The notes beneath the pieces were generated by a model. The model had not been told where the DNA came from. It did not search any database and was given only the letters and a program-made list of their open reading frames with translations. Of a DNA stretch of 64,000 bases, positions 21,218 through 45,800 are shown one piece after another. Made by a program: the position numbers and the translations under genes. How positions within the stretch are numbered: the stretch's first letter is position 1; every line of letters starts with the position of its first letter. Source of the DNA: Odontesthes bonariensis (Eukaryota; Chordata; Actinopteri; Atheriniformes; Atherinopsidae); NCBI RefSeq assembly GCF_027942865.1, contig NC_134509.1, forward strand, positions 18,340,697 through 18,404,696, in the 5' to 3' direction.

Positions 21218-21280
21218 TCACGGCTTGGAAGCTATGGAAGCCCATTTCCGCCATGAAAGAAAAAATAAAAGACCAACAGG

Positions 21281-21768: not shown

Positions 21769-22613
21769 ACGATACCGGAGCAGTGAGAGACAAGTCTCCT
21801 TAGAAAAACAGCGTACTCCAGCACCCAGTTATATGCTCCTAAATCCAAGGTAAGCATAGGATCTCATTGTCAGTTAAAGGTAGGTACGCCTTCTTTGATT
21901 TCCAAGGTTATAGTTGTGTTAGTTTTGTGTCGCCACGGAAACGCCTGCAGACTGGCTTTATCAAATATGTAAACGAGTGAAATGTAAGTATCAGAAAAAA
22001 GCTGCTGGATAGTTTTTCGGTTAGTGTTGCCAGGTTCTATGGTTCTTTCGTTTTAAATGCTTTTTGATCGTGTGGTGGTGTGTACAGCGGTCGTTTTCAT
22101 AGCAACGTTAGCTAGCCGCAGGTTAACCGTCAAAGCGCGTTAACCTTGTTATATGACATTATTTAATTGGTTTTTTTTAAGTAGTCCGTTAATTAGATTG
22201 TTTTTATTTCAAAGTGTGAAAAAAAGTTTGTTAATGCTCTCCAAGAATTCAACAAGTTAGTAATTATTTTGCGGCATAAATACAAGCACGAGCTAGGAGG
22301 TAACACACCCCACAGCTTGTTGTATGCACATGCATAATGTGATTCACTATCTTCCCCGTTAAATTGTTTTTGTCGATATATAGACAAGAGTAAAATATGT
22401 AAGTGATATGCATCAGTTTTCAACCTGTTTTCTTAACAGTTTCATGTACATTTAAGCTAAGCTAATGCCGGAGGTCTACAGCTTTAGATTGACAATATTT
22501 ACAAAAGCAATTAAAAATAAGGGAAATTGAAAAACAAGGAACTAAACAACAAAAAATAAAAACAGGCAGGCCCTGTTGAAAATTTTAACTGTTTAACTTT
22601 ACTCAACTTTCAG
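21769..22613. other. Left interior of outer element, probable promoter region
   Basis: Unique sequence between the left array and the first exon-like block of the SAM-HECT gene. No ORF of note. It would hold the promoter for that gene; no specific box is claimed. Confidence 0.4.
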
Positions 22614-22630
22614 GATACCTGAAGGGCCTA

Positions 22631-23286
22631 TGTAAAGGACTACTAATATGTTCTGTATTATAAATTTATTCATATGTGTTTGTCCTTCTGCTGCAGCTGT
22701 TGCGCAGCCAATGCTTTTATTTTGAAAAGCTTAGAACAGGAAGGTGTCGTAAATCGATTGTCGCAAACTGCGGTAGTAGCGCGAACTCCGGGGAAAAGAG
22801 AGGCGATGTGCTCCACAGTTGAACGGAACATATTACTACAGTATTATTGTGGATTGAAAAGGTCCTTTAGCACCTGGTTGATGGAGGAACAAGGTTGGTA
22901 GTAGTGTTTTATTGTATAAATGTATATTTAATTATATTTCACGGAGCATACAGGTTGCTATCAAGCTTAGCAGTAATGTTTTTCCCAGTAGAGGGCACTC
23001 GTGTTTTATGTGTCAGTCATGTTTATCATATATAGGTTTATAAGTTTCAATGTTATATGCTATGTAAGGTCACAGGTTTTATCTTTGTGTATTTTGTTTT
23101 ATTTCACAGTACAGTAAAATATTGAAGACAATATTAACGAATAAAGGTAACATACTGTCAGAGTTACTAATAATGTATTTATTCTGTATGTTTCTAGCTC
23201 TTACGGTGTGTTCACATGCAAGGCTGTTCAATAAAGGATTGTGAACCATCAGTTTGAGAGACCATCTTTCCAACCGGGACGCTACA
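22631..23286 (+). repeat. BEL 5' LTR
   Basis: Begins tgtaaaggactactaatatg and ends gggacgctaca. It reads the same as the 3' LTR throughout. It contains an aataaagg polyadenylation-type site near 23228 and would supply the promoter for the element. Confidence 0.92.
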
Positions 23287-23430
23287 GTAAGAGCTTGACC
23301 CAAGCTGAGAAGAGCTTTATTACAAGCTAAGGAGAAGCTCATCCCATGCTCAGCATAGAGGTTCCAGTTCCACAACTCCAATCAAGGTCTTCTGGGATCC
23401 GATGGTCAACTATATCGTTCTATCTTCAGT

Positions 23431-26400
23431 ATGGAAGCAGCTGGAAAAGAAACTGAGGATACAGAGGAGCTCCTGGTCAGTGAAGAAGAGGAAATGTTAT
23501 GCTCTGTTCGTCAAAGGAGGCCTACAGAAAAAATGCAAGCTTATCAGGAGGAGGAAGCCCATAAAAAGGAAAAACGACTTCTCAAAGTTTATGATCAATG
23601 GAAAAAACAAGTACGTACAACACGAGAACAATTAAAGGGAGACCTAACAAACAGTCAAATCGCTTCACTTATGGACATCTTAGAGAAAGAAAGAGATAGT
23701 GTCATAAAGTTATATGCAGAAATTAGAGAAAACTCCACTCCCTCTAATGACACAAGGCGACTCATAGATGCATGTGAAGCAGTCTCCAAAGATATTATCA
23801 AGGTTGCACATGAAAGACTCTCAGGCATAGACGAATATGACAGCGGCAAAGTGAAGACACGCCTACGTGAGCTTCTTGACCCAGACTATGCTCAATCCAT
23901 TTACAGTTCTTCAGTCACACACTCAAGTAAACACTCATCTGCTAGTAAGTCAAACTCGGGAAGGTCAGTAGTAGCAGTAAAGAGAGCAGAGGCTGCAGCA
24001 GAACTAGCTGCCAAGGAAGCGGAGTATGAAGTGTTAATAGAAGAAGAAAAACAAAAGGAAAGGATTCAACTTTTGGAAGAAAGGCAGAGAAGGGAGCTTG
24101 AATCTCAAAAACGTGAGTTGGGGAGATTAAAGGCTGAAAGGGAGTTAAAGGCCGCACGAGCTAGGCTAATAACTTATGATCAAGAGATAAAGAGTGAGAG
24201 CAGTGTTCATGTTGACTGTAGCAGAGCAGCTCAGAGGACCCCCACAATTTCTTCTCCCATTCAAGTCCCTAATAATAATGTTGTGTCCACCTCACCTCCA
24301 CAAGCAGACGTTCTTTACTTAGCCCAAGCATTACAGGACAGTGTTGCCATGAACCGACTACCAATGCCAGAACCCTCCATATTCACAGGTGACCCAATAC
24401 AGTTCATTGAGTGGAAATCTTCATTCGTTGCACTCATCGATACAAAAAATATTTCACCTGCGGACAAGCTGCACTACTTAAGGAAATATGTAGGAGGTTC
24501 AGCTCGAACAACACTTGATGGCATCTTCTACAGAAATGACAGTGATGCATACCAGGATGCATGGAAACGCCTCAACGAAAGGTACGGACATCCATTTGTT
24601 GCACAGAAGGCATTCAGAGAAAGGCTGGCAAAATGGCCGAAGATACAAACAAATGACTCTATAGGATTTAGAGCATTCGCTGATTTCATTCAAACATGTT
24701 ATGAAGCTATGCCCCACATAGATGGTTTAAACATTCTCAATGATTGTGAGGAGAACCAAAAACTTGTTCAGAAATTACCAAACTGGGCAGCTGCAAGGTG
24801 GAATCGTCAAGCTACTCATTACATGAAAGAAAGCGGGAAGTTCCCAAGCTTAAGGCACTTTGCTGAGTTCATGTCTTCTGAAGCAGAGATAGTGTGCAAT
24901 CCTATCACATCATTTCATGCTCTTCACTTTACAGACTTCACAAAAATCACTAGTAAAGGTTGCCAAAAGGAAAAAGGGCCCACCTCCAGTGTTCTCCACA
25001 CACAGGTGGTGACAGAGACTGAAAACGCAAAGCAAAGGTCCAACGTTAAACTACCCTGCATGCTCTGTCAAGACAACGGACACAAACTTTACAGCTGCCC
25101 CCAGTTCAAAGGCAAATCACTTGAGGAACGAAGGAAATACATAAAGGATAAAAGGCTCTGTTACGGCTGTCTCAAACCCGGCCACAGCGCAAAGGACTGT
25201 CGCTACAGACTTGTATGCGAAATGTGTAAGAAAAAACACCCCACCTGTTTGCACGACTTCAACTATGATAACAACAAATCAGCAACAAACCCAATTCAGA
25301 CCAACACAGAACAGGCTGCAACTACCCTGTCTCTAAATACAGAAACCAACGAACAATGTGCAAACACTTCCATGATCGTACCAGTGTGGGTTTCTTCAGA
25401 ACAACAACCAGGTAAAGAAAGGCTTGTTTATGCACTCTTAGACACCCAAAGTGACACTGTCTTCATTGACCAAGATGTGTCTAACAACATTAAGGCTAAG
25501 TCTACCCCAATAAGGTTAAAGCTCACTACAATGCTAGGTAAGGATGCTGTTGTGCCATGTGAACGTGTCTCAGGTCTCAAGGTGAGAGGCTACAACTCCA
25601 CGGAAATGATTGAACTCCCTCCTGCTTACACCAAAGACTGTATACCAGTTAACCGCTCTCACATTCCTTCCTGTGAAACGGCAAGGCAATGGAATCATCT
25701 CAGAGCAATTGTGAATGAGATTCCTCCACAGCTAGAATGTGAAGTTGGGCTTTTAATTGGCTACAATTGCTCCAAGGCATTAGCTCCAAGGCAGGTAATC
25801 TTAGGAGGAGATAACGAACCCTACGCGGTCCGCACCGCATTGGGCTGGAGTATTGTAGGCCCTACATCATCTCACAATGACTCTCTTAGCATGTCTGTGT
25901 GTCACAGAGTCACAGTCAAAGAGCTCCCCTTAATGACTCCAGCTGATGCACTCAAGGTTCTCGAGTCTGACTTTAAGGATGACACCAAGGATAACAGATC
26001 AGTGTCTCAAGACGACATTCTCTTTCTGAACACATTAAAGGAAGGCATTTACAAAAACAATGAAGGACATTATGAAATGCCACTTCCATTTAAGGAGCGA
26101 CCTCTCTTACCAGATAATAAGCAAATGGCCACTGTGCGACTTCAAAGCCTCAAAAACAAACTGTTGAAAGACCAAGGCTACAAGAAGCAATATGTAAAGT
26201 TTATGAGTGAAATCATAGAAAAGGGTGATGCAGAGGAAGTGCACAGTGAAGCAAAGGAAGGAGAACGGTGGTATATTCCCCACCACGGGATATATCATCC
26301 CCAAAAACCAGACAAACTCAGAGTAGTCTTTGACGCCTCAGCAAAATACAAAGGTAACAGTCTCAATGATTATTTGCTGTCAGGCCCAGATCTGCTGAAC

Positions 26401-28814
26401 AGTCTAAATGGTGTTCTCATCCGATTCAGACGTCATCAAGTTGCATTGTTATGCGACGTTGAAAAAATGTTCCACCAATTTCATGTATACGAAGCAGATA
26501 GAGACTATTTAAGATTTTTATGGTGGAAAAATGGCAACCTGGACGCTGAGCCCCAAGAATTTAGAATGAAGGTGCACCTTTTTGGCGCCACGTCCTCACC
26601 AGGGTGTGCCAATTATGGACTAAAACATCTTGCGAAAGAAAATGAGACACAGTTTCCTCTTGCATCTCAGTTCATAATGAAGGATTTCTATGTGGACGAT
26701 GGTGTAACAAGTACTGCAAGCATCATGGAAGCTATTCAGCTCGCTCAGGAGGCTCAGACACTCTGTGCATCAGGTGGCCTCAGACTACACAAGTTTGTCA
26801 GTAATGACAAAACAGTGATAGAAAGCATTCCAGCATCTGAACGTGCCTCTCCACAGCAAGCATGTGACTTAGCATTTAATGACTCTAAACTTGAAAGAGC
26901 TCTTGGGATTCACTGGCACATAGAATCAGACACACTCAGATTTCGCTTTCACCCCGATGACCAACCTGCTACAAGACGTGGCATCCTCTCTATTGTTGCA
27001 TCTCTTTACGATCCATTGGGATTCATTTCCCCCTTTGTACTCACAGGCAAAAGAGTGCTTCAAGAGGCATGCAAACAAGGCACTGGTTGGGATGATCCCC
27101 TTCCCAGTGAACTATGGCCAGTGTGGGATAACTGGAAAGATGACTTGAAGAACTTGGAGAAAATCACAATACCACGCTGTTATGTTACCAAAGATTTTGG
27201 CCAAATTGTAAAAACAGAGTTGCATCATTTTTCCGATGCAAGTTCCTATGGTTATGGTCAGTGTTCATATTTAAGACACATAAACAAAGATGATAAAGTG
27301 CATTGTGCTTTGGTTACAGCAAAGACCAGAGTTGCTCCCATTAAAGTAATAACCATACCAAGACTCGAACTGACAGCTGCCGTTGTCTCCATTACTGCAA
27401 GCAACATGTTAAAGGATGAGCTTGAATTGACACAGATTGACGAGTATTTCTGGACAGACTCTAAAGTAGTTTTAGGTTACATCAATAACGAAGCACGCCG
27501 TTTTCACACATTTGTCTCCAATAGAGTGCAAAAGATAAGGCTCAATAGCGCCCCCCAGCAGTGGAGATATGTTTCGTCTGAGCAAAATCCTGCGGATATT
27601 GCCTCCAGAGGTTCAAATGCGAGTGACCTCATTTCATCAGATTGGTTTAATGGGCCACAGTTTCTGTGGAACAAGGCAATCCCTCCAGCTGCAGAGATTG
27701 ACATGAACGTGTCACTCGGTGATCCAGAGGTAAAAAGGGCACACGTACTGACCACTCTCAAAGCAGAGAAGAAGAGTTTGTCAGATAAGTTGACAAAGTT
27801 TTCCTCGTGGTACAAAGTCACTCAAGCCATAGCTCGACTCATTCGCTGTGCCAAGAGAGATAAAACAGCAGGCCATAGTACAGTACAGGAAAGACAACAC
27901 GCACAATGTGTTATTCTAAGGGACGTACAAGCAAGGGAATATGCAGAGGAAATAAAGATGCTAAAACACGGAAAGGCACTTCCTCGCAAAAGCACACTGT
28001 TTGAAATGGATACTTTCCTTGACAATGATGGACTCCTTAAGGTGGGAGGAAGACTCAAAAATGCTTCATTCTCCTCCACAATGAAACATCCAGTAATAGT
28101 TCCGAAGGGTCAACATGTCACTCAGCTAATAATAGCTCATTTCCACAGTAAAGTGCAACACCAAGGGAAGGGACTGACAATCAATGAGATCAGGTCAAAT
28201 GGAATTTGGATTCCAGGCATCAACAAGGCCGTGGCAAATTTTATACACCAATGTGTAAAGTGTCGCAAACTCAGAAGAGGTACGGAAGAACAGAAAATGT
28301 CTGATCTCCCAACACAGCGCTTAGATCCATCTCCACCATTTGCCTTTTGTGGAATGGACTGTTTTGGACCATTTCTAACCAAGCAAGCTCGCAAAGTGCA
28401 CAAGCGTTATGGACTTCTTTTTACCTGCCTTTGTTGCAGAGCAGTGCACATAGAAATGTTAGATGACATGACTACAGATGCCTTTATAAATGGACTCCGC
28501 TGTTTCATAGCCATAAGAGGAACAGTCAGTGAGATAAGGTGTGATCAAGGAAGCAACTTCGTCGGAGCTAAAAACGAACTGAAGGAAGCTCTAAAGCAAG
28601 TGGACCCTAACCGAATTACCACATTTCTTGCCGAGAAACAGTGTGACTTCAAAATGCACACTCCTCATTCAAGCCATACAGGAGGGGTATGGGAAAGACA
28701 AATCAGGACAGTTCGAAACATTCTGTGTTCAACTGCTTCACTTTCGTCAGGTAGACTGGATGATGCATCATTAAGAACATTCTTTTATGAGGCAATGGCC
28801 ATTACGAACAGCAG
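23431..28814 (+). CDS. BEL/Pao gag-pol polyprotein, N-terminal ~98% of pol up to the insertion
   Basis: One open frame from ATG 23431. Order by residue: coiled-coil rich gag (about 1-270); the gag region FTGDPIQFIEWKSSF (about 315); zinc knuckles CMLCQDNGHKLYSC (about 544) and CYGCLKPGHSAKDC (about 576); aspartic protease LLDTQSDT (about 669, DTQ in place of DTG); reverse transcriptase with MKDFYVDDG (about 1087); RNase H (HFSDASSYGYG, FWTDSKVVLGYI); integrase zinc-binding HxxxH...CVKCRKLRR and catalytic GMDCFGPF (about 1641), CDQGSNF (about 1704) and GVWERQ (about 1752). After about 28814 the frame runs into the inserted element and stops at 28908. All enzymes are readable; only the C-terminal integrase tail is cut off. 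Confidence 0.95.
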
Positions 28815-30776
28815 TATGGAAGCAAATCGTAATCAAAATTCAAATTCAAATGCATTATCAGAAATGCTTTTTCATTTTAAGAATGTGGCTGCATTATTTG
28901 ACTCATAAATATAATTACTAATCAAACATCCTATTTGCATTTCAATTTTCTTCTTCAAGACTGCTCATTCTTTCACTTAATTCAAATGAAAAGGACAAAG
29001 ACATTTGGAATTTAATTTTCAAAATATGCCTCAGCAAATAGATACCAAAATTCAATTTGAAATGTAAAAGTTGAAAATTCAAATGCATTATCAGAAATGC
29101 TTTTGCATTTTAAGAATGTGGCTGCATTATTTGACTCATAAATAAAATTACTAATCAATCATCCTATTGCATTTCAATTTTCTTCTTCAAGACTGCACAT
29201 TCTATGCCATAATCAAAAAGAAAACTAAGCGGACATTGCTTTTTCGTTTTAGTGGTCTGCATGCAAAATACTGCCCACAATTCGATAATGAAAAAGCAAT
29301 CTGAGCGGCGCAGGAGAGTGACGTCACGCCTGCTGACCGTGCTACCCATCATGTAGGCTACGGTAGGGGGCGGTGTGCATATTTGCTGTACAGTTTAGCT
29401 GCCCAGGTGGAGTCAAACAATATATCCATTCTGATGCCGGTGACCGGGTTGAACGGGTCACAGAGAGCTTGGCTGCATACTCTGCCGTCACAGATTCAGA
29501 GGTTAGTGCAGCAAGGGCTAGCGCGTCGCGGCTACGACCGGCCATGACTTTCGGGCCGCGGCCATCGCTGAGGGAGCAGCCATTAATGAGGCTGAGACAG
29601 ACTTTGCGAACAGGAGTCGGGGGATTACCTTTCACAGGTAGGATTCAACATTACTATTGGTTGCATTTTGTCAATAGAATATTATTGTACTGTATTTGTG
29701 TCTGCCGGCGAAATCGTAGCCAGCAAACGTTAAACTAGGATATGTTTATAGCAGGTGTTATGCCGAGAAGTGCTCCCCCTGCTGGTCGTACTTTAAGGAG
29801 AGTCTGTGATGGAATGATACGATAAAACTACATCATAATTTGTTTACCTAATTGAATTAACGGATGCAAATCTCAATAAGTCCAAATTTGTATATACAAT
29901 TAAAATAACCAAATTTCATAGTTTCAGGTTCATTTTTATATAATTTCATCTGGGCTATAATGAGTTGAGATTGTTAATAGAAAATGTATCCAACAGTCTT
30001 TCGTGTTGACTCCAAAAGTATTAGTCACGGCCCTTACTTTTGAATATATGTCCAATAATATAAAAATAGTTAGGAATAGGAATACTCTAAACTCTACAAT
30101 TGTCAGATTATCATAATTGTACACGTATTATTAATTTACATGAAGAGATGTGAAAAAAGATGCACGAATGAAACACCATTGTCAGCTCAATATTATTTTT
30201 TTTGGATAAATGTAATAATCCACACCTGAAACGGTTTACGCGCGCTCCGTGAATGGGAATGCACTTCTCGGCAGAACACCTCTGTTCACACGGCTATTAG
30301 GCCAACGGAAACTTCATAAATCATATATTCCATAACACAGGCTTAGATTACAACTAACACAAGAATGCTACTTTTGAAATAATGCAAATATTACTGTTAT
30401 AACATTGACCATCACATTTTACTCAGGTTTATTAATGACGTTTATTATGCCTGTATTATTCACATGTAATTCTTTCATCCTAACAAAAGTATTTACCTCA
30501 TGTCTCATACCCACCCCTCAGATTGTCCGACCGAGAGTTGGTGTTATTCCCTCCATCTTCGGCTTACAGGTTCACCTAATAAGAGTAGGTGTATCATCAT
30601 AAGGCTATTAGCATTCATAAATTGAAATATTATCAATAACAGGGCGGGGTGAAATACTTATCCCTGTGTGTGTGTATTTTTATATATTTTAATATTATGC
30701 TTCTTCATTTTAGCCAGAAAAGGGCAGGACTACATGTTCTTCCAGAAAAGCTGAAGAGAGCCTGTCTGTGACCACT
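28814..30776. repeat. Left inverted arm of fold-back element
   Basis: Reverse complement of 32736-34700. It includes an internal direct repeat (about 28835-28975 and 29070-29200) and a GC-rich block at about 29300-29640 with a tgacgtca CRE-type palindrome (29319-29326) that looks promoter-like. Short ORFs occur as mirrored pairs in both arms and are not supported as genes. Confidence 0.9.
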
Positions 30777-32735
30777 GACAGCAAGGGCTCGCACATTTTC
30801 TGGTGGGGAGGGGGGGGGGGCGGGGGGGACTCACACTAGGGCCAAAACACCAACTACAGGTACCGTACATTAACAGCAGAATGACAGTGTGTGATAGACT
30901 GGTCAGTAGGCTATATTTATAAGACACCGATGTTCGTTGTCAGCTGCCGCTGTTTTGGCAGCTCGAGCCTTGTCGTAATTTTGTAATTTGGAACGGATGG
31001 AATGAGAATCCAGCTTTGTACATATGTATGTGTATATATATATTTCTAGTGTAAGGTAGAGGATGTTTGTTTTGTATGTGTATTTATTTGACGATTGCCT
31101 ATGGTGCCCTACGAATGAATGAGTACGTATGTATACACACTGCTTGAAGATCATTCAAGCTGTTGACCTAACGAATTTTCCAATCACGTACTACAAGCTT
31201 TGTATCATTGAAGAGGAATAAAGACACTATACAGCTGTTATGATTTTTATGTAACATCTTTATCAAATCTGTAATAAAGTATTTCACAAGGCCAAAACAA
31301 TGTAAGAAAATATCTTTGATTTTTGCTTTTTTGGCTTCACAGCATAACTTTGTTATGACCATAGCATCAAGGTTCAAGGTACAATGTTTTTTAAATTGCC
31401 AATTGTGCATGAACCGCAGTCAAGACACATGCACTACTTGTTCAGGGATCTCTCTGAGTTAGTCTAGAAATATAGAAATACTATAATAAAATATGAAGAA
31501 TATAAAAAACACTGTACAAGAAGGTAGTTGTATATACACAAGTTTAAATATTTTGAATGGTATCAACCTAAAGCAAAACAAAATGAGCTAAGAGCCCTTG
31601 TTATAAATAGGCTTTATTCTTAGACTTTATGTATTCATATTCTGTAGTTCTCTAGATAATCTATGTTCCTAGTTTGTACGTTACACTCTGCTCATACAAC
31701 GCAAATGTATGTCCAACACTTTAAGATGACGTAGCGGGATAAAATAACTGGGTCAGATAAAGCGTCTCTTAGGACAGATAGGTCTGGTGCAGTAGATGCA
31801 CGCCTGAAACAACACGCACACACACACATCGCTTATCACATCCAAAGAACATGACGAAGACGGTGGATGGCCTGCTCACAGCATGAGTAAATATTCAATA
31901 ATGCGCCGTCAAATGTAGGTACAACCTCTGAGATAAGGGTGAACATAAATATGAAATGTTTCCAGATCTCTGGACTTGGTCGGACGGATTTCATGCGAGA
32001 ACTCTGTCTCTCCAAGTCCAGCGCTGATACTTGACCTGTGACCTCCAATAAATACTTTGTTTAACTTAAGACTGCTCCAACTGGTTCTTAGGCTTCCAAT
32101 ATAAAGAATAGGGTCTAACACCCTGAAAGAGGAGTGTTTTGCAGAGCTTGTTTTTGTCTCATGCTCCCTTTTATGCAGGTCAAGAGAGGTCAGTTTGCCA
32201 ATGTGGTGGGGCCTTATTTTCAGAAACACAGACACAAACAATGACAACAAGTTGGAATAATGGTTGTTGATGCCAAACTTTGTCTCCTCAATGTGTTCCC
32301 CAAGCTGAAGAACATCCTCCGTTCTCCTCCCGGATGATGTACGTGACTGTCGTCGTCTTTACAGCTTTGCTGAAGCTTGGCGAATCACCCACTCTGCAGC
32401 TCTCAGCACCTTCACTGTGCCACATGATGGAATCACTAGTACACCGTTGTTTTTCAGGGCTAGAAAGTGGTAGCTATCATGAAATGATGAAGGTACAGCA
32501 TCTCTGACCAAGCTTGCATGGCACACACCACAGGACAGCTTTTGCAGAATCTGGAGGACTACAAACCCTGCGATGTAGTACAAAGCATTGTCCACAACAT
32601 CCACCAGTATAAATATTGAGAAGTAGCTATTTAACATATTTAGAACGGTAATTTTGATATGATGTTTAAAAAAGAAATACTCAAATCATTAGGCTGAGTT
32701 AGTGAGTTTGAGGTTGAAGCTTCTGGGTCATCCTG
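30777..32735. other. Unique core of the fold-back element
   Basis: Includes a G-rich run (about 30800-30830), AT-rich sequence, a segment (about 31600-32118) also found inverted at 49072-49568, and the transposase remnant described separately. No complete gene. Confidence 0.6.
31990..32637 (-). pseudogene. P/THAP-type transposase C-terminal remnant
   Basis: The minus frame 32637-32359 reads VDVVDNALYYIAGFVVLQI, then LSCGVCHASLV and NGVLVIPSCGTVKVLRAAEW. This is the pattern (YIAGfvv, CxxC, GgLi-Ps) seen near the C-terminus of P-element/THAP9-like transposases in animals. A second frame (32250 downward) holds FLKIRPHHIGKLTSLDLH, which fits the final basic segment of the same proteins. The frame change and missing THAP and RNase-H-like domains make it non-functional. 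Confidence 0.6.
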
Positions 32736-34700
32736 AGTGGTCACAGACAGGCTCTCTTCAGCTTTTCTGGAAGAACATGTAGTCCTGCCCTTTTCTGGCT
32801 AAAAGGAAGAAGCATTATATTAAAATATATAAAAATACACACACACACAGGGATAAGTATTTCACCCTGCCCTGTTATTGATAATATTTCAATTTATGAA
32901 TGCTAATAGCCTTATGATGATACACCTACTCTTATTAGGTGAACCTGTAAGCCGAAGATGGAGGGAATAACACCAACTCTCGGTCGGACAATCTGAGGGG
33001 TGGGTATGAGACATGAGGTAAATACTTTTGTTAGGATGAAAGAATTACATGTGAATAATACAGGCATAATAAACGTCATTAATAAACCTGAGTAAAATGT
33101 GATGGTCAATGTTATAACAGTAATATTTGCATTATTTCAAAAGTAGCATTCTTGTGTTAGTTGTAATCTAAGCCTGTGTTATGGAATATATGATTTATGA
33201 AGTTTCCGTTGGCCTAATAGCCGTGTGAACAGAGGTGTTCTGCCGAGAAGTGCATTCCCATTCACGGAGCGCGCGTAAATCGTTTCAGGTGTGGATTATT
33301 ACATTGATCCAAAAAAAATAATATTGAGCTGACAATGGTGTTTCATTCGTGCATCTTTTTTCACATCTCTTCATGTAAATTAATAATACGTGTACAATTA
33401 TGATAATCTGACAATTGTAGAGTTTAGAGTATTCCTATTCCTAACTATTTTTATGTTATTGGACATATATTCAAAAGTAAGGGCCGTGACTAATACTTTT
33501 GGAGTCAACACGAAAGACTGTTGGATACATTTTCTATTAACAATCTCAACTCATTATAGCCCAGATGAAATGATATAAAAATGAACCTGAAACTATGAAA
33601 TTTGGTTATTTTAATTGTATATACAAATTTGGACTTATTGAGATTTGCATCCGTTAATTCAATTAGGTAAACAAATTATGATGTAGTTTTATCATATCAT
33701 TCCATCACAGACTCTCCTTAAAGTACGACCAGCAGGGGGAGCACTTCTCGGCATAACACCGGCTATAAACATATCCTAGTTTAACGTTTGCTGGCTACGA
33801 TTTCGCCGGCAGACACAAATACAGTACAATAATATTCTATTGACAAAATGCAACCAATAGTAATGTTGAATCCTACCTGTGAAAGGTAATCCCCCGACTC
33901 CTGTTCGCAAAGTCTGTCTCAGCCTCATTAATGGCTGCTCCCTCAGCGATGGCCGCGGCCCGAAAGTCATGGCCGGTCGTAGCCGCGACGCGCTAGCCCT
34001 TGCTGCACTAACCTCTGAATCTGTGACGGCAGAGTATGCAGCCAAGCTCTCTGTGACCCGTTCAACCCGGTCACCGGCATCAGAATGGATATATTGTTTG
34101 ACTCCACCTGGGCAGCTAAACTGTACAGCAAATATGCACACCGCCCCCTACCGTAGCCTACATGATGGGTAGCACGGTCAGCAGGCGTGACGTCACTCTC
34201 CTGCGCCGCTCAGATTGCTTTTTCATTATCGAATTGTGGGCAGTATTTTGCATGCAGACCACTAAAACGAAAAAGCAATGTCCGCTTAGTTTTCTTTTTG
34301 ATTATGGCATAGAATGTGCAGTCTTGAAGAAGAAAATTGAAATGCAATAGGATGATTGATTAGTAATTTTATTTATGAGTCAAATAATGCAGCCACATTC
34401 TTAAAATGCAAAAGCATTTCTGATAATGCATTTGAATTTTCAACTTTTACATTTCAAATTGAATTTTGGTATCTATTTGCTGAGGCATATTTTGAAAATT
34501 AAATTTCAAATGTCTTTGTCCTTTTCATTTGAATTAAGTGAAAGAATGAGCAGTCTTGAAGAAGAAAATTGAAATGCAAATAGGATGTTTGATTAGTAAT
34601 TATATTTATGAGTCAAATAATGCAGCCACATTCTTAAAATGAAAAAGCATTTCTGATAATGCATTTGAATTTGAATTTTGATTACGATTTGCTTCCATAC
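32736..34700. repeat. Right inverted arm of fold-back element
   Basis: Mirror of 28814-30776, with only small substitutions and indels, for example near 33300 and 33450. The high match suggests the arms are young or kept alike by gene conversion. Confidence 0.9.
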
Positions 34701-35171
34701 AGCAGACCTCTTACAGTGGACAGCTTAAGTGACCCAACCAGCCCAGAGCCGTTGACTCCAAATCACCTGCTCACCATGAAATCTAAGGCAGCCCTGCCAC
34801 CTCCAGGTAAATTCATCAAAGAGGACATTTATGCACGGAAAAGGTGGCGGCAGGTGCAGTACCTAGCAGAACAGTTTTGGTCACGTTGGAAAAGGGAATA
34901 TTTGTCCAACATCGCAACAAGGCAGAAATGGCATACTCCAAGGAGAAACTTGAAAGTTGGAGATGTTGTCATGGAAAAGATGGATGACTTACCTCGCAAT
35001 GAATGGAGATTAGCACGTGTAATGGACACAGTGACTGACAAAGACGGACTCGTAAGGAAAGTAAAGCTTCGCTTTGGAGAAAAGAAGATGGAGAAAGGAA
35101 AATGTCCTAGCAAACCTTCTATAGTAGAACGTCCAGTGCAGAAACTGGTTCTGCTTTTTGAGACTGTTTAA
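34701..35171 (+). pseudogene. BEL/Pao integrase C-terminal fragment
   Basis: Continues the BEL pol frame past the inserted element: the split codons resume with RPLTVDSLSDPTSPEPLTPN and end with a DUF5641-like region containing FWSRWKREYL, WHTPRRNLKVGDVV and LPRNEWRLARV, then a stop at 35171. It lines up exactly with the point where the left part ends (ITNS), which confirms a clean insertion without loss. The upstream part of the local ORF is inverted-repeat sequence, not BEL. Confidence 0.9.
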
Positions 35172-35309
35172 CTATATTTTACAGTTAATGTTCATCCTTT
35201 CTTGTGGACTGAGTTTTCACAGACTTTAAGGGTTGTAGGTCCTTTCTTCATTAGGAAATTATTATCGCTCCCTTTGTTTGCTAGTTAAGCTCTAATAATT
35301 TGGTGGGAG

Positions 35310-35965
35310 TGTAAAGGACTACTAATATGTTCTGTATTATAAATTTATTCATATGTGTTTGTCCTTCTGCTGCAGCTGTTGCGCAGCCAATGCTTTTATT
35401 TTGAAAAGCTTAGAACAGGAAGGTGTCGTAAATCGATTGTCGCAAACTGCGGTAGTAGCGCGAACTCCGGGGAAAAGAGAGGCGATGTGCTCCACAGTTG
35501 AACGGAACATATTACTACAGTATTATTGTGGATTGAAAAGGTCCTTTAGCACCTGGTTGATGGAGGAACAAGGTTGGTAGTAGTGTTTTATTGTATAAAT
35601 GTATATTTAATTATATTTCACGGAGCATACAGGTTGCTATCAAGCTTAGCAGTAATGTTTTTCCCAGTAGAGGGCACTCGTGTTTTATGTGTCAGTCATG
35701 TTTATCATATATAGGTTTATAAGTTTCAATGTTATATGCTATGTAAGGTCACAGGTTTTATCTTTGTGTATTTTGTTTTATTTCACAGTACAGTAAAATA
35801 TTGAAGACAATATTAACGAATAAAGGTAACATACTGTCAGAGTTACTAATAATGTATTTATTCTGTATGTTTCTAGCTCTTACGGTGTGTTCACATGCAA
35901 GGCTGTTCAATAAAGGATTGTGAACCATCAGTTTGAGAGACCATCTTTCCAACCGGGACGCTACA
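35310..35965 (+). repeat. BEL 3' LTR
   Basis: Same 656-bp sequence as 22631-23286, preceded by the purine-rich tract ggtgggag and followed by TSD gccta (35966-35970). Confidence 0.92.
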
Positions 35966-36015
35966 GCCTAAAGAGACAGACAGAGGAGGTTCCTTTGACG
36001 TGAACCTAAACAGAG

Positions 36016-37004
36016 GTAAGTTGCAACTCTTGTAAAAATACAATTTATCATATTGTGTGTTTAAATGAAAGTAATTAAGATCAAAACTAAGATAATTCTG
36101 ATGATGTTCATGTACTTGATCGTTTTACAACGATGAGAATTTCATTTTGGGAAGTGTTCAACCATTAAAATGTTTCAGGGGAAAAATGTAAACACAGAAC
36201 TTTCAAACTTAAGCTCTACACTTTACCATTTAGTTGTGGAGACACTGGTAGAGTTTTCTTTATTACTTTTATGTAGTCCCGCGACCCGACCGACGGATTC
36301 AGCGGTATAGAAAATGGATGGATGGACTTTTATGTAGTTTCTTTGTGTATTGCTTTGTGATTGCAGATCTGTATAGCTGCTTGGTTGTCTGTTATCCTGT
36401 TTTTTTTTTTGGCTGGATCTTGAGTCTGAAATAATATTTCTATCTATCATGTAGGGCTGGACAATAAATCAATAATATATATCACGATAGACACGTGATC
36501 AATATTAATAGATCGTGCGTCTGATAGAATATTCAATATATAGAATATTCTCTGAACTCTGATCCAGAACCACAGAGCATTCTGGAGGATGTAGGCAGAG
36601 GAAAGGCTTTAGCCACTCAACCTCTCAAGGCCAGCTAAGCTAGGTTGATGGCATTATTCAACTCCCTCACTCACTCACTGGTGAACTAGCAACAAGCTGT
36701 TGAGTAACTTGCGGAGCAGCAGTTTCATGTTTCGCCACCGTGCCTCATAACTTTAATAAATAAATAAATAAATAAAGGTGTGAAAGCTGTGGATAAAAGA
36801 GGAAAGATAACATCACCAGTTTGGCAGCATTTCAGATATAAAAACAAAACAAAATAACAACTAATCAGTAATAAACTGATATGAAATGCTTGCATCGTTT
36901 TTCAGTAATATCATCCAACTCTACTATCATGTTCATAATAAATCTTTTGCAATGTTATATTTTATTAGACGTTATTCATTACTTATTGTTTGTAACTGTC
37001 ACAG
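36016..37004. other. Intron of SAM-HECT gene with small repeat relics
   Basis: It starts with a gtaagt donor and ends with a gtcacag acceptor. It holds a short SINE/LINE tail (about 36280-36330, gtatagaaaatggatggatgg), one end of a hAT-type MITE (about 36454-36530, agggctggacaataaatc) and a (taaa)n tract near 36757. No coding sequence. Confidence 0.55.
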
Positions 37005-37005
37005 G

Positions 37006-39183
37006 ATGGAAGAGATATGTGACTTCTTAAAATCACGGGATGTTTCAGAGGAAGTCATACAACGACTGGAAAAGGATAAGGTAGTTAGATTGTTGAGGAA
37101 ATCAGTACCATTTAGCAGTTATCATACAACACTATTATAGCGACATGGTGAAGAAAGATAAGTTTTATCATTTGGCCTTTTTTTACTTTTTTTTAAAACT
37201 TTTTTATTTATAGGTTAAATAACTGTTTCAACATTTTTTTTCTAGATTGACTCCAGTGTCCTTCTGCTCATGACAGATGAGCAGCTTAAGGAGTATCTCC
37301 CATCTTATGGTGATCGACTGGCGCTTCTTGGATATTGCAGAAGGAGGGGAAATGATCCTGCTGGCCGGAAATCAAAACTTTTTGACCGACTGAGAGCCAA
37401 GATTTCAAGAAACAAAGGCAACGATCAGAAGCAGGTCTCAGAAAATGTTACCATCAGAAATGCTCAAAAAAGTATGCGAAAAGTTGAGATAGGATGGCTG
37501 AATTCTCGAGATGGGAAGTTTTTTCAAGTTAGGACAAAGAAAGGTGGTGGAACAAGAAAAATTGATGTGTCAAAGGACTGTAGAAAAAATGAGTTAATTG
37601 AAAAGGCAGTGGGTTTGTTTTTTCCGTCTCAAAGAAATTCACAGGGAAGAATCACAGATTTTGAGTTTGATATGACAGATTTTCAGGAACATTCACTTGA
37701 TAAACATATTACCGTTGGAGAACTTTATGAGCAGACAAAACTACCTCTTTTGCGATTTTACCTAACAACCAAAAAAAAGGACAGTGGCAGTGACTCAGAA
37801 CCAGACAACCCCAGTGGAAATGACCAAGAAGCTTTAAGTTTTTCTACTCACTCTCAGGTTCACACACCACTGACTCAATCCAAAGCACCAGAAAGTTTTG
37901 ATGTCATATATGTTGGAAACAGCAGTGTCCTGACAAACAGCAGCAGTGATAATGTTCACCTAGTTTACTCTACTGTTGACATGGGTGATTTGTCCAGTGT
38001 CCAAGAGCTAGATGCAGCAATCAATGTTGACATTTTAGAAGACAGTGGCACTGTTACCTTTCTCACAGGACACATTTCTAACACAGGTAGTCTCAGTCTT
38101 GATGACACCCTTCCGCTGTCTCCACAGTCATCTAGTCCAGTGCTTTCTTCTTCACACTTTGATTATTTGGAGGAGCCCATTGTTCAGAGAGATGGGATTA
38201 AAAAAATCCTTGTTCTTCACCGTGGCCAAATCCTGAAAGAACTAATTTCACATTTTTGTGATCCAAGTGTCACTCAGGAGGACATATGTATTCAAGTGGT
38301 GCTTCCTGATGGAAGGCGAGAAAAGGCTGTTGATGATGGTGGAGTTTTGAGGGATGTCCTCTCCGAGTTTTGGCAGGACTTTTATGAACAGTGCACAATG
38401 GGCAATAACTTTAAGGTGCCCTACTTGCGTCATGATTTTGGACAGCAACAATGGGAAAGCATTGGCCGAATCATTGCCTTTGGCTGGCAAAAACAGAAGT
38501 ACCTGCCTATAAAACTTGCTCCAGTAATACTGGAGCAAGCAGCTCTTGGTTGTATAAAGAGTCCTCTTGTTGATAGCTTCCTTAGGTATGTTACAGAGTC
38601 CGATCGAATGGTGTTTGAATCTTGCCGTTCAGATTTTCAGAGTGTGGACAGAGAAGAGCTTCTGGAAATCATGGATCTCCATAACTGTCGAAGAGTACCA
38701 ACAGCTGATAACTTTGAGGTGCTACTTGAGGAGCTTGCTCACCAAAAGCTCATTCAGGAACCTGCCTTTGTTATTGAGCAGTGGAGCACTGTGCTTTCCC
38801 CGCTGAGGTCAGAGATGGAAAGTATTACAGCTGCATATGAAAATCTCCAACCAACATTAAGAAAGGTTGTACGTTCAATTGTATACCCTGCAATCATGAA
38901 TGCACAGCAGAAAAACATCAGCAAATATTTAAGTTCTTATCTCAGGGAATCAGACACACAGCACCTGTCACTTTTTCTTCGGTTCTGCACGGGATCTGAT
39001 TTGTGTCTTGGAAAAACCATCAGTGTTAGCTTCACTCAACTTCAAGGTATTCAGAGACGGCCAGTTGCCCACACATGCGGTTGCTACCTTGAGTTGCCGG
39101 TTAATTATGATAACTATCCAGAGTTTCGATACGAAATAAACAAGGTCCTAGAAAGCAGTGTATGGGTGATGGATATAGTGTAA
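37006..39183 (+). CDS. SAM + HECT-domain ubiquitin-ligase-like protein (G2E3-like)
   Basis: Two exons: 37006-37080 (25 codons, gtagtt donor) and 37246-39183 (after ttctag), about 670 residues. Residues 1-75 form a SAM-like domain (MEEICDFLKSRDVSEEVIQR, then LLMTDEQLKEYLPSYGDRLAL). A charged and Ser-rich middle follows. From about 310 a HECT-type ligase domain is readable: VDDGGVLRDVLSEFW, IGRIIAFGW, LFLRFCTGSD and the catalytic loop VAHTCGCYLELPV with Cys at about 636 (codon 39076-39078). HECT enzymes take ubiquitin on this Cys and pass it to a substrate. Similar HECT proteins are highly multiplied in fish genomes. Here it lies inside the outer transposon, convergent to the integrase gene, so it is cargo or an accessory transposition factor. 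No frame damage is seen. Confidence 0.85.
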
Positions 39184-40466
39184 CAGACTTCAGCTGAAGA
39201 ACATGTGAGTTTAAGGAGTTTTTAGCATTACACTTTCAAAGTTTAGCATTATCTTAAAAACACAGTTTTTAGCTCATCTTACCTCCACAGTGTTTGTATT
39301 TTTGCAATGTATTGTTCTCTGGAGTATTTATAAGACCTGCAATGTCTTAGTTGTAGGCACTCTCCTACTGGTGTTTGTTTTTTTCTGTTAAAGTACACCA
39401 AAGTTAAAGAAAAAGTTTAAAACATAAATCTGAGTCTGCAGTAAAATGTATTTCCTCAATATTTTGGGTTTAATTGAAAGATTTTGTATTGCTGCTATGA
39501 CTTTTTTTTTTAACTTTTAATCATTTTACTTGAGGCCACAATAGCTGGTTTATTCCACAGTTAAAAATTGAGATATGGCCAACATGCTTGTAAACAAGCA
39601 GCTCTTGGTTGTATAAATCATTTATGAATCATTTCTGATGTTTTGTTTCTTATATCAGTCACATACTTTAAATGTTCTGTGCGTGAACATGTTTCTACTC
39701 TGTAGTTCTGGAACAAATGGAACAGAGTGTTTTATTTATCCGTATTCATTAAAACGTTTCTTTTGTTTACTCAGCATTTTATTTATATTGCTGTTATTTT
39801 AAGGTTATGCTTACTTATATCTTCAATAACAGATTGATGCCATTGCAGTAGCTCAATATCAGATTTAACCAGAAAACAGCTGAGAAAGAACACTTTTTTT
39901 CAGTTATTCTTTTTTTTTACACCTTGAAGCATTATTTGTCATTATTTTTAAAAATGATTTTAGAAAATAACTCAAAGCCTTCTGTAATGGTTATGTAGAG
40001 ATTTTTTTATTTTATTTTGAAATACAATAAACCACTTTCTCAATTTAAGTGTGATTTATTTGGGGTGGGGGCTTTAAATCAGCATTGGATGCACACATGA
40101 AAAATTAGGTTTCAACAGCAGTTTTCAATTCCTTTATTTTCTATTTAATAATCAACATAATGTTCAAACTGTAATGAAGTGAAATTGATAATAAAGGGAA
40201 AATATCAAAATCAAAAACCATCTGACCATACTTGTGTAATGTATCAATATATTGATTATTATATCAGCTCAGCATGCATTGATCTTATTATTTTAGCGTT
40301 TCTTCTTACTTGGTTACAGAGCTTGGGAATGGCTTTGACCCATCATTATGATGGTGCAACAATTTGCTGAAGCAAATGCAGGTACTCCCAGGAAACGTCT
40401 ACTGAAGTCCAAATTAGTGACAAGGTAGCAAACTGTCAACGCAACAAAATGTTTTTACATTTATCA
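39184..40466. other. Convergent 3' region between the two transposon genes
   Basis: AT-rich, no gene. Holds the 3' UTRs of the SAM-HECT gene (AATAAA-type site near 40026) and of the integrase gene. A stretch from the SAM-HECT exon (gcagctcttggttgtataaa, about 38541) recurs at about 39599-39618, a small local duplication. Confidence 0.5.
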
Positions 40467-41907
40467 CTACAGTTCCAAATCACTAGTAATCAACTGTCTG
40501 AGTCTTATATATAGATCAATTGTTGCAAACACATCATCTGTGACATCCAGGTTATGCTCTGAAATCAGGTCCACACAGATACTGAAGACATCTTCATCGC
40601 ATGGAAAGTCTTTGAAAACACAGTTTTCCAAGCAGGCTTCAACCCTGTTCAGATCGATGCTGTGTAGATAGTCTCTGGTTCCATACACCTGAGGTACTGT
40701 GTACATTATGGATGAGCGCCCATGAGGACTTCGTGAATTATGTGCTGGACGTATCCTGTGGTTGTTCCAAGCTGAAGCAACTTCATTTAGTTCTTTCTAG
40801 AAGAAAATAAAAACCAAACTAGACTCATTGCCTTGAAATAAGCATTCAAAAGTAAAACAGAAATATGAACCTAGCATTACTAAATCCATTTACCCATCTA
40901 AAAACGGGGAGATTTCATTCAAGCAACTGTCCAAACATGCAATCTTTGCAATATTTAAGATATGCTATTAATTTAGTATCATACTCAGAAAATAAATCTT
41001 TGCACATTATAATCACTTTATAGCAATCATAAATATTTTCAATAGGTGAGAAGGTGTAAGACAGAGCGGCTCAAATCAAGCTCACCTGTATTATGTGGAG
41101 AAAACAGAACTGAATCAAGGCTTTGTCCAAGAAGCTGTCCGAGAAGTGTCCATCTGCTTTCAGTTTGTCAAAGAGGTCCATCCAAAACTGGAAACATTCA
41201 CTTCGCAGGATCAACCACCATCTTTCAATCCGCTGATTTCCAGTGCTTGGACCAAATATTACATTACCACTTTCAGGTTGATCTTCTGTAAGATGCAAAA
41301 ATCTTTGCATGTCAGCCGCATGAACATTTTCTGTCCCTAAATCCACTCTCAGTCTTTCAGGACAACCCTCGGCTTTAATCACTGCATCCATGAAATATCC
41401 AGCAATGACTTTTGGATCATTATTTGTTTTGTATGCCTCAAGCCATATTAGCCTTCTGGAAAAACCGTCAATGCAACCGTTGATCCCAATTCCAAATGGT
41501 TTGAGCTTATCATAGCCATCCATATGCCAAACATAGTTTGGACCACGACTATAGTAAACCCGTCTCCTCAGTCGATTTCTTGACCTTAGGTCCACTCCTT
41601 CACCATCTAGTAAGCGTAAAAGGACTCGAACTGTTTCCCTGTCTGTAACAAGACCATTCATCCAACATTTTTGGTGCATCCATCGATATCCGTGACACTG
41701 TCCAGAGGTTTCGAGTTGCTGTCGAATGAAAGCTGCCACGACACTCGCATCAGTTTTGTTCTTTCGGCGCCAAAGTTTCTTCTTATTAAGAATCCTTTCA
41801 AGTGTCCTCTTGCTAAGAATAACCCCATGAACCTCAGCCAGCAAAGCAAGAATTTCATCATTGGTGAAACCACGTCTGAAATACACCTCAATTTGTTTAT
41901 AATCCAT
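40467..41907 (-). CDS. DDE integrase-core transposase of the outer element
   Basis: Two exons: 41907-41086 (274 codons, ends CAG before gtgagc) and 40796-40467 (109 codons plus stop, after ttctag), giving 383 residues. N-terminal helix-turn-helix-like part (YFRRGFTNDEILALLAEV). The integrase core follows: WHMDGYDKLKPFGI with D130, RVDLGTENV with D189, and GNQRIERWW with E228, so DD38E spacing. Exon 2 adds WNNHRIRP, as at the end of rve-type cores. Retroviral-type integrase transposases cut and join DNA ends, so this is the likely enzyme that recognised the TATGGAAGC ends. The catalytic triad is intact. A host-domesticated origin is less likely, because the gene lies just inside the element's right array. 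Confidence 0.85.
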
Positions 41908-42019
41908 TAAAAAGGGGAGAAAAAACTGGTTAGACTACTGTTTTTCACTGGTTAGACTGATCAAATGGATCTCATCCTCAGACAAGACAGTATGTCTACT
42001 GGAATTGTCAGTTTTGGAA

Positions 42020-42772
42020 AGTCAAAATTATGACTTTAAATCTCATAATTATGACTTTGAAAGTCGAAATTATGACTTTAAATCTCATAATTATGATTTT
42101 CTATCTCATAATAATGACTTTGAAAGTCGAAATTATGACTTTGAATCTCATAATAATGACTTTCTATCTCATATTTATGACTTTGAATCTCATAATAATG
42201 ACTTTCTATCTCGTAATTATGACTTTGAAAGTCGAAATTATGACTTTGAATCTCATAATTATGACTTTGAGTCTCATAATTATGACTTTGAGTCTCATAA
42301 TTATGAATTTGAATCTCATAATTATGACTTTGAAAGTCGAAATTATGACTTTGAATCTCATAATTATGACTTTGAATCTCATAATTATGACTTTGAAAGT
42401 CGAAATTATGACTTTGAATCTCATAATTATGACTTTGAATCTCGTAATTATGACTTTGAATCTCATAATTATGACTTTGAAAGTCGAAATTATGACTTTG
42501 AATCTCATAATAATGACTTTCTATCTCATAATTATGACTTTGAATCTCATAATTATGACTTTCTATCTCATAATTATGACTTTGAATCTCATAATTATGA
42601 CTTTCTATCTCATAATTATGACTTTGAATCTCATAATAATGACTTTGAAAGTCGAAATTATGACTTTGAATCTCATAATTATGACTTTGAATCTCATAAT
42701 TATGACTTTGAAAGTCGAAATTATGACTTTGAATCTCATAATTATGACTTTGAAAGTCGAAATTATGACTTC
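42020..42772. repeat. Right terminal tandem array of ~21-bp units
   Basis: About 36 units of the forms gaaattatgactttgaatctc, ataattatgactttgaaagtc and variants, the reverse complement of the left array but longer (about 750 against 490 bp). It lies between the integrase gene and the right inverted end. Repetitive ORFs of ~260 residues occur in three frames on two strands, so none is taken as a gene. Confidence 0.9.
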
Positions 42773-42819
42773 CTGTTGGTCTTTTATATTTTCTTTCATG
42801 GCGGAAATGGGCTTCCATA

Positions 42820-45800
42820 GAATTGAGTGTTAAGAATGTGATTCTCCTTTCTGCTGGAAACAAAGGAGCAGAACTGTGGCTCTTTTTTTTTTAGATGACC
42901 GACCATCACAGAGCGAATAAGAAGGAAGAATATTCTGCCACAGGCTGAGGAAACTAAAGAGAAAGGTGTCTTTAGGACGTATCTCCCAGCATGACGGCGC
43001 CCCACATCAGCTGAAGCCTTTCTGGGTGAGTCTGCATGTTGTCTCTGTGGTCTTTTCCAGGTTTTTATCAGGTTAAGTTGAATTTATAGTTCAGCCCCTG
43101 GGAGAGAATCCAACCCTCCAGGATGAAGCAGGCTTAGAAAATGAAAGAAGACAAAAGGTTGAGTTGGAATTTCTCCTGGATTATACTGACATCTTGTGGT
43201 TAAACATTATTTTACAGTATTTTCTCGAAGCTAAATGATCAAATATTTAAGTTTCTATTCTATTTATCAAACCCTTTTTCTTTCTAAGCAGATTTCTTTG
43301 TATTTCTTTTACACAATTTTCTGTGTTTGATGCCTGAGCTTCTGTTAAAGATGCATTTTGTCATATTAATATATAAATATATTTGTATAATAAATTGCTG
43401 CACATGCTGCTGAAGTCTGACAGGAGTTTGATAACTACTAACAATACTGTAATAAAGACTTATTCCATGTAATGTATTTCACTGCTTTTTCATCCCGTGT
43501 CACAGGTAATTAAATATATAAACTCTCCACCTGCAAATGAACTGAATAAAAACGATGATTCGCAGCAGCAGCTGTAGGTTCGGAGGAGTTACACCGACCA
43601 TAAATGTTGGCATCACATGAAACTGGATCCAGAATCAGTCTAAAGTTTAGGCTCAAACAGCTTAAACAGCCCAAACCATCTCAAACGGTCGTTAAAGCCT
43701 CCTAAATGAACAGCCTGCCTGGTTCAGTAAAAACAAATGTGTCTTCTTTCTAAAGCAGGAGGAGTTGTGATGTGATTTGTTGTATTTTTCACTTGTAAAA
43801 CAACTATTTAAGGAAGTTTTCAGGGTTGAACTTGTAAAATAATTAAATCTCCTTTAGAGAGATGAGTGTGGTGAACCTGAGCAGTCCAGATGTTTCTGCA
43901 CACCACAGAGTTAAAGACAGATGTGTCACTGTCTGTGGCAGCCATGCAGGCCATAACAACCCTCCTCACAGGTAGAATTATCATCATCGTCTGGAAGAGT
44001 CATCCTGATGAGTCTGAAAGACATTTGGGTTTTTCCCGTTCAGTCATTAGCAGAGGAGCTCATCTTCATCCATCCAGCTGTGATTACTCAGCTCAGCAGT
44101 GCGGTCGCGCCTCCCAATGAAGCTTCGAACAGGTGATGTCCTTCCTAATGTTCAAATATGGCAGCTACAGACTCGTAAGATCACAACAGTCTGTGGTTCT
44201 TCTGCTTTATTTGGTGTTTTCCTGTTTTATTTGGTGTTTTTTCTGTTTTTTTTTGCTTTTTATTTGGTGTTCTTCGTTTTTTTTGGAGTTTTTGGTTTTA
44301 TTTAGGATTTAATCTCGCTTTGCGTTACTCTATTCTTGATGAGCCTCTTTGTTTCTACTCTGGCTTTTATGATTTGCCTCTGTTGTTGTAGTCTCAGTAT
44401 TGTGTTACCTCGGTTCAGTTTCTGGTTTATTCTGTTTCCGTCCTCGGTTCTCCTGTTTGGGCCTCAGCTCCACGCTCACCTGTCCGTCCTGTTCATCAGT
44501 TCCCGCAGTATTTATGCTCCTGTGGTTGATCACCGCTGTAATTCTGTTGTCCACAACCTTCCAACCACCGCCGATCCCGACAATAACAAGCTTAGAATAA
44601 AGCTCAATGTGAGTCTCAGCTGCTGTTTTTCTGTTTCTGCCCTGTTTGATGTATTTTTGTGCCTCTGCTTTTTTCACTTTTCCCTTTAAACACTCTGAGC
44701 TGTGTTACAGGGAAATAACTGTTCTTCAGTCACAGCATAGGAACAACACACAGAGAGCAAGGAGAGAATAAAACATGTTACTGTTTCCTTTGTCCAAATT
44801 GGTGTTGATCCACTTGAACAGAACCCTCTACAAATAAATTCACAATAAGATGGTATTTAGTGCTCTGAAATAGCCTGAAATAGTCTGAAAGCTTACTTTG
44901 GAATCAGTAACCTTTCCAGGTGGATATTTCAGTAAAGTTTGGGATACATTTCCTACAATGATGCCCATTAAAACTGTAGCTCAGGTGTGAAATAATCAGT
45001 GTGATCAAATTCATCTGGTGTTCATTCACCGAAACGTCCTAAAATGACAGGATTCTACTTCCTGTTCATGTTTTCCTGGTTAAAAAAGTCACGTCTGCCC
45101 TGCAGTTGACCCAAATGATGTATTTCAATTCAATTCAGTTCAGTTTTATTTACATAATGTCAAATTACAACAAATGTCATCTCAAGGCATCACAAAGATA
45201 CAGTCGAGATGTTTGTATCATTAAAAAGCACTCGATTATCCTTCATAGAAAAACCTTCATATGTGGAACTCAGACATGCAAAGTTGAGTTTTTAAGGCCC
45301 TTAAGACTGTAATATTTACTGTTTATGCAAAAAGACAAACTAAAGTAAAAGTGCTCAAAGTAATGAGGTCTGTGCAAACTTTAAATAATATTCAGTCATA
45401 TTCAGTCCAATTCAAGCCAATTATTATGACTAACTGGATGAATTTTGTTCAGATCTTTTTAATTTATCTGTAAAATTGAATGTTTTCAAGAGAAAATAAA
45501 CCTTTATCCAATATGTCCTCCTTGAAATGTATTTTACATGAAGTGGAAGCGCCGGTTTAAAGAAGATACTGTGAGCTGGGTGTGCTTTTGTATCTCGTTA
45601 CATCATCTTTCACCCCGGAGACATTTACGGCATCACCACAACAGAGAATATATGCTGCGTAAAACAAAGGGAAGACTGTTGTGTCGGGTTATTTTTACCT
45701 GTTAGAATAACAGAAATAAAGCTTTGTGTGTTTATTCTGAACAAAATGCTTCCAATTCTTCTTCGTGAATGTGCTCTGATCAGGAGGAAATGATGAGTTA

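Follow-up and report, generated by a model that had tools for sequence, protein, structure and literature searches.

The locus raises the question of why a gene for a HECT ubiquitin ligase should lie beside a gene for a DDE integrase, and whether the two belong to one mobile element. The usual picture of a DNA transposon is a transposase and a pair of ends. The window (the whole stretch of DNA analysed, 64,000 nucleotides from Odontesthes bonariensis) had been predicted to hold a two-gene DNA transposon at 36886..42820, with mirrored ends, an intact SAM-HECT protein and, convergent to it, a DD38E integrase. This original prediction was followed up in the window and across the 945-Mb genome.

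Both genes are intact in the window copy, as predicted. The HECT gene has two exons on the + strand. Exon 1 (37006..37080) encodes the SAM-like start MEEICDFLKSRDVSEEVIQRLEKDK and is followed by a GT donor; the N terminus matches that of P0001, from Xiphophorus. Exon 2 (37246..39183) is preceded by an AG acceptor and carries the HECT fold (Pfam HECT, 3.6e-8). The protein has 670 residues, and its catalytic Cys (codon TGC at 39076-39078) is residue 603 of the open reading frame and residue 636 of the spliced protein. The integrase gene lies on the - strand. Its exon 1 (41086..41907; Pfam rva_4, 5.1e-26) encodes D130, D189 and E228, the latter pair separated by 38 residues (DD38E), and its exon 2 (40467..40796) matches P0117, from Xiphophorus couchianus. 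The product is 383 residues long, and its match to Pfam rve (6e-4) is below the curated cut-off. In protein searches the closest relative of the HECT protein was from Xiphophorus hellerii (91% identical) and that of the integrase from X. couchianus (94% identical), both of them live-bearers, and the exon models are consistent with the predicted Xiphophorus proteins.

The HECT protein has been further analysed. AlphaFold predicts a HECT fold with complete N- and C-lobes. The mean pLDDT of the model is 72, mostly above 85 over residues 312-630, and residues 173-308 are unordered. A structure search with the model found 99 PDB chains at E≤0.001, the best solved match being HUWE1 (E=3.9e-12). Ahead of the HECT part is a conserved β-rich domain, which matches nothing in Pfam and carries an invariant GGGTR motif. 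The SAM-like start is a weak match: in P0001, a close homologue, the SAM_3 profile reaches E=0.03 and so falls short of its cut-off, and the other HECT proteins scanned gave no SAM match. In an alignment of the window protein with 14 homologues, hand-picked from 116 matches, the catalytic Cys is invariant in 15 of 15 sequences, as are many other columns. The aligned homologues span fish, frogs, bivalves, a firefly (a beetle), a sea cucumber and others. Among bacterial and viral sequences, 14 pattern stretches in GTDB genomes and 15 in IMG/VR contigs gave no confirmed HECT relative. The database entry of one homologue, P0069, assigns it to the MAG of a bacterial symbiont; it is probably animal host DNA. 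The fish copies P0060, P0102 and P0128, of HECT or integrase, bear unrelated names such as fumarate hydratase, Cse3 and methylglyoxal synthase.

The edges of the element are only partly where they had been placed. The right edge stands, with a TATGGAAGC-type end at 42819. The left edge was rejected: there is no end-like sequence at 36886, even with up to four mismatches, and the left end lies at 21233. On the basis of the inverted ends, and of a sister copy (C4:33252763-33258672) that has both of them, the whole transposon occupies 21233..42819 (no strand assigned), which is 21,587 bp with a nested retrotransposon and 8,247 bp without it. An end-pattern scan located the left terminal inverted repeat, TATGGAAGCCCATTTCCGCC, at 21233..21252 (+), with a perfect copy on the right at 42800..42819 (-); allowing four mismatches in 20, the window contains this sequence at these two places only. 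Genome-wide the 20-bp pattern has 285 matches with at most one mismatch, against none for the reversed control, and its abundance is above chance. The mirrored repeat of the original prediction does exist, but it is a 21-bp minisatellite internal to both true ends, at 21281..21753 and, as a mirror image, at 42022..42771 (neither with a strand). These minisatellites give the element 522-nt inverted arms (91%).

The nested element is foreign to the transposon. It is a BEL/Pao LTR retrotransposon (22631..35965, +; Pao peptidase PF05380, 5.6e-49) of 13.3 kb, with two LTRs of 656 bp that are identical to each other, and is flanked by the 5-bp duplication GCCTA (22626-22630 and 35966-35970). The sister copies L004 and L002 (C4:33.25M and C20) are continuous across this site and lack the 13.3 kb. 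The interior of the retrotransposon has a 1,880-nt inverted duplication, 28811-30690 against 32824-34703 of the window, which is 99% complementary.

The window copy has no 6-bp target-site duplication, the flanks GGAAGC (21227-21232) and GAATTG (42820-42825) agreeing at 2 of 6 bases. The sister at C4:33.25M likewise has none (1 of 6), though its 20-bp ends are as perfect as those of the window copy. On C17, HECT fragments at 23955305 recur at 24016933, each shifted by the same 61,628 bp; a broken copy of the window family has apparently been duplicated locally.

Duplications are found elsewhere. Nineteen end pairs were chosen by us and scored, a further one at C16:38.33M being seen and left out because its left end is altered. 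Ten of the 19 have a perfect 6/6 duplication and 14 have at least 5/6. Three independent insertions combine both genes, matching ends and a perfect 6-bp duplication. They are C24:25969696-25978705 (GAACTC); C21:24693744-24700157, which has a local duplicate at C21:24730147-24756367 (GGTTTG); and C3:42704583-42712784 (GTTGAC), in which the integrase is accompanied by the C-lobe of a second HECT class, described below. Perfect duplications also surround elements with an integrase match and no HECT match, at C25:22203225-22207408, C7:4117524-4119461, C20:1356721-1359169 and the C12 copy in L017, and the HECT gene is therefore dispensable in cis. Among the end matches listed, a related type of end that carries CCCGTTTCCGCC occurs often, for example at C7:4117524, C12:29575329 (L017) and C26:25498260 (L016). 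Those CCCGTTTCCGCC copies for which both ends were read are about 0.9-1.9 kb long; their integrase is truncated or broken, and they show no match to HECT. A direct search for inverted ends in the 1.5-kb flanks of eight divergent pairs gave short, chance-looking matches only.

These features allow the element to be classified. According to the available text of PMC10045372 and PMC12730594, IS3EU transposons have TA..TA ends (TAYGG..CCRTA in fungal families), usually 6-bp duplications, and a DDE transposase. Ends of this type are present here, as TATGGAAGC in the window family and as TACGGAAGCG and TACGGTGGCC in other families; the transposase is of the rve type (rva_4 match, DD38E); and the group makes 6-bp duplications, with the window copy itself an exception at 2/6. 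Ginger1 and Ginger2 require a duplication of 4 or 5 bp (available text of PMC10045372), and membership of either was rejected on the 6 bp found here. The ends, the duplication length of the group and the DDE domain fit the published descriptions of IS3EU, and the window element is classed as a cut-and-paste DNA transposon of that type.

The original prediction had suggested looking for a HECT gene near the integrase at unrelated loci, and this was done in the O. bonariensis genome with a radius of 20 kb. A HECT match is present at 44 of 92 integrase loci (at 43 of them within 10 kb), and the orientation is convergent in all 44 pairs; uniform placement would give 0.38 chance neighbours. Together with the three insertions flanked by 6-bp duplications, this bears out the central claim that the HECT and integrase genes travel in one DNA transposon. 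The 44 pairs are loci rather than independent insertions: one family accounts for many of them, and of the two C21 elements one is a local duplicate of the other. Among integrase matches of at least 700 bp, 26 of 36 loci are paired. All counts are lower bounds, because the genome searches score only the best candidates.

It is worth setting out how the counts arose. There were 147 integrase matches, of which 93 rows (92 loci) were used; the other 54 are 24 fragments at counted loci and 30 distant matches. The distant matches (34-36% identity) lie at C3:33183551-35890634 (27), C20:12374812 and 12686715 (2) and C67:17047 (1). None has a HECT match nearby in any of three HECT searches, and including them makes the pairing 44/122. 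From 73 HECT matches 61 rows were used, the remaining 12 being fragments at counted loci. Protein searches gave a first count of 29 of 92 loci with HECT within 20 kb, all convergent. A divergent HECT query (Eleginops) then added three HECT loci, each convergent beside a seemingly lone integrase; of its 93 rows, only places not already covered were added, as nine stretches. All 51 rows of matches to the C-lobe of the second class were used, with two pairs merged by hand.

The second HECT class (class II) came to light in an integrase group that shares about 45% identity with the integrase of the window and seemed to lack HECT until its member L092 was read. In L092 the integrase faces a convergent gene with five or more exons, and the encoded protein matches positions 18-305 of 306 of Pfam HECT (E=8e-20). 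The class II C-lobe is convergent beside 12 integrase loci, and none of the 44 paired loci has both classes. Classes I and II are distant, a profile comparison giving E=8e-5, a probability of 61% and 18% identity. The end pattern of the class II family has 650 matches with at most one mismatch (reversed control 0). From the exact end inwards, two copies of this family (C21 and C24) show no difference over 4,103 bp, and their flanks differ; the family has therefore moved recently.

Two patterns had been named in advance as counting against the link, namely integrase copies regularly lacking HECT and HECT genes lying mainly outside such elements, and each is seen in part. There is no HECT detected within 20 kb at 48 of the 92 integrase loci. 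However, 29 integrase loci cluster into eight families, of which seven include HECT-paired members, the exception being L015-L017. The ten unpaired long loci comprise seven in HECT-bearing families, two in the HECT-less family and one outside the clustered set. Since they fall mostly within HECT-bearing families, the majority of the long copies without HECT appear to have arisen by internal deletion. Integrase-only loci were considered as proof against the pairing; this argument was weakened, and not kept, because the divergent query and the second HECT class revealed partners at 15 such loci. As to HECT genes outside, class I lies beside an integrase at 33 of 49 loci (16 are away from any recognised integrase), whereas class II does so at only 12 of 49 (37 away). 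About a dozen of the integrase-distant class II C-lobe loci are on C13 (21.2-29.8 Mb) and the rest on other contigs; these may reflect an expansion of host genes, domesticated copies or an element of another kind.

The two genes also share a history. For ten pairs, the HECT and integrase trees have five of seven splits in common, which was equalled by 2 of 5000 label shuffles, and the distances are correlated (Mantel r=0.965 for ten pairs; r=0.75, p=0.015, when each of six families contributes a single pair). The trees thus largely agree: the HECT gene moves together with the transposase gene, and the two have diversified in parallel. The test of dN/dS on both genes that had been proposed was less decisive. 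Within families the values (HECT 0.54-1.31, integrase 0.23-1.44) are uninformative, those for HECT being near neutral, which reflects decay of copies. Across older splits the integrase gives 0.10. The between-family values for HECT are poor: the window copy against L066 gives 0.35, with 13 stops in L066, one other pair is saturated (dS 2.2), and one yielded no value.

Hints of the same arrangement come from other species. Gene numbers suggest adjacency in Periophthalmus (integrase NQD34_015709, HECT NQD34_015710) and in Corythoichthys (HECT LOC130920718, integrase LOC130920720), and P0032 and P0140 are each on a contig of 4,943 bp. In Danio aesculapii and Pinctada both proteins are on contigs of equal length, with non-adjacent gene numbers. 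A search with the pearl-oyster integrase for mollusc integrase/HECT neighbours found no adjacent pair among the 120 matches listed.

On the basis of these observations, we hypothesise that the HECT ligase aids transposition in trans by marking a limiting host protein, and would put the probability of this at roughly 0.6. The DD38E integrase would cut and join DNA, leaving the 6-bp duplications that are seen. The ligase would take ubiquitin from a host E2 onto its conserved cysteine and pass it to some host factor by which the element is held in check, possibly one of silencing, chromatin or DNA repair. With this barrier lowered, transposition may become more efficient, and copies without HECT could be mobilised by intact copies elsewhere. 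Given the intact catalytic site, the occurrence of close relatives of both proteins across phyla and the use of one slot by two HECT classes, the element probably gains from the predicted ligase activity. As judged from the sequences, the most likely role of HECT is an accessory one, either in promoting transposition or in overcoming a host defence.

The target might instead be the element's own integrase, which the ligase would ubiquitinate so as to disassemble the complex after joining or to control its amount, acting as a built-in regulator. The pairing and co-diversification are explained no less well by such a partnership between the two proteins than by a host target, and the SAM-like start and the conserved β-rich domain before HECT could bind a partner. 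Nevertheless, two very different HECT classes accompany related integrases, which is easier to understand if the target belongs to the host, and we regard self-regulation as rather unlikely.

A passive role, with HECT as captured cargo taking no part in transposition, would suit both the clean duplications around elements without a HECT match and the neutral dN/dS within families. It sits poorly with the presence of HECT in seven of eight integrase families and the orientation fixed in 44 of 44 pairs. It also has to contend with the agreement of the trees, a catalytic Cys kept across phyla, and a second HECT class that fills the same slot, and seems to us improbable. A chance neighbourhood, in which a decayed integrase happens to lie beside a multiplied host HECT gene, might have been suspected from the window copy, which has a 13-kb insertion and no target-site duplication. 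It is refuted by the elements elsewhere that hold both genes between matched ends with duplicated flanks, and by the count of 44 neighbours, all convergent, against 0.38 expected. A ligase that marks a hindering host protein is the simplest reading, and cargo a less likely one.

If the ligase does act on the host, its conservation beside a transposase would mean that animals restrain transposition at the level of host proteins, and the protein that it marks would be a direct route to finding that barrier. The two-gene element suggests that mobile DNA can bring its own protein-tagging tool into the host cell. Many of the unnamed HECT genes of fish could have originated in this way; the link to G2E3-like genes made in the original prediction was assessed by eye. 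More tentatively, animal IS3EU may be an ancient class with its own E3 ligase as a standard second subunit, drawn from two exchangeable HECT classes, and a major source of the numerous HECT genes in fish and molluscs that are still uncharacterised.

Comparison with known systems places the element as follows. Host HECT ligases such as HUWE1, SMURF, NEDD4 and UBE3C have the HECT fold and catalytic cysteine in common with the window protein, but identity is 12-17% among the 50 structure matches listed, the N-terminal part differs, and the window HECT is encoded by a transposon. RAG-like (RAGL) transposons differ in their two genes, which encode RAG1L and RAG2L, a non-ligase partner, where the present element has an rva_4 integrase and a HECT ligase. 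They too have two convergent genes, inverted ends and target-site duplications, as described in the available text of PMC7204232. Helitrons with VTD or OTU deubiquitinase domains are also mobile DNA with an enzyme of the ubiquitin system (available text of PMC9741609). That enzyme, unlike the one here, removes ubiquitin and is part of the Helitron's own reading frame, and Helitrons move by a rolling-circle mechanism.

The nearest system is IS3EU / GingerRoot, with the same TA..TA ends, 6-bp duplications and DDE transposase in the available parts of PMC10045372 and PMC12730594; a HECT gene is absent from the main text of both and present in this fish element. A literature search found nothing joining IS3EU to HECT. 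Repbase and the GingerRoot paper were outside its reach, and earlier cataloguing is therefore possible. For IS3EU with ubiquitin it returned, in the text accessible, only a fungal pathogen genome and buffalo methylation, and the available text of PMC4255032 and PMC8195603 contains no HECT-transposon link. The closest parallel is in fungi, where, in the available text of PMC12730594, TET+ members of the same superfamily likewise carry an accessory enzyme gene in opposite orientation to the transposase, an alpha-kinase, with a TET/JBP gene between. The fungal elements therefore combine a kinase and a TET/JBP dioxygenase with their transposase, whereas the animal element described here has a HECT ubiquitin ligase.
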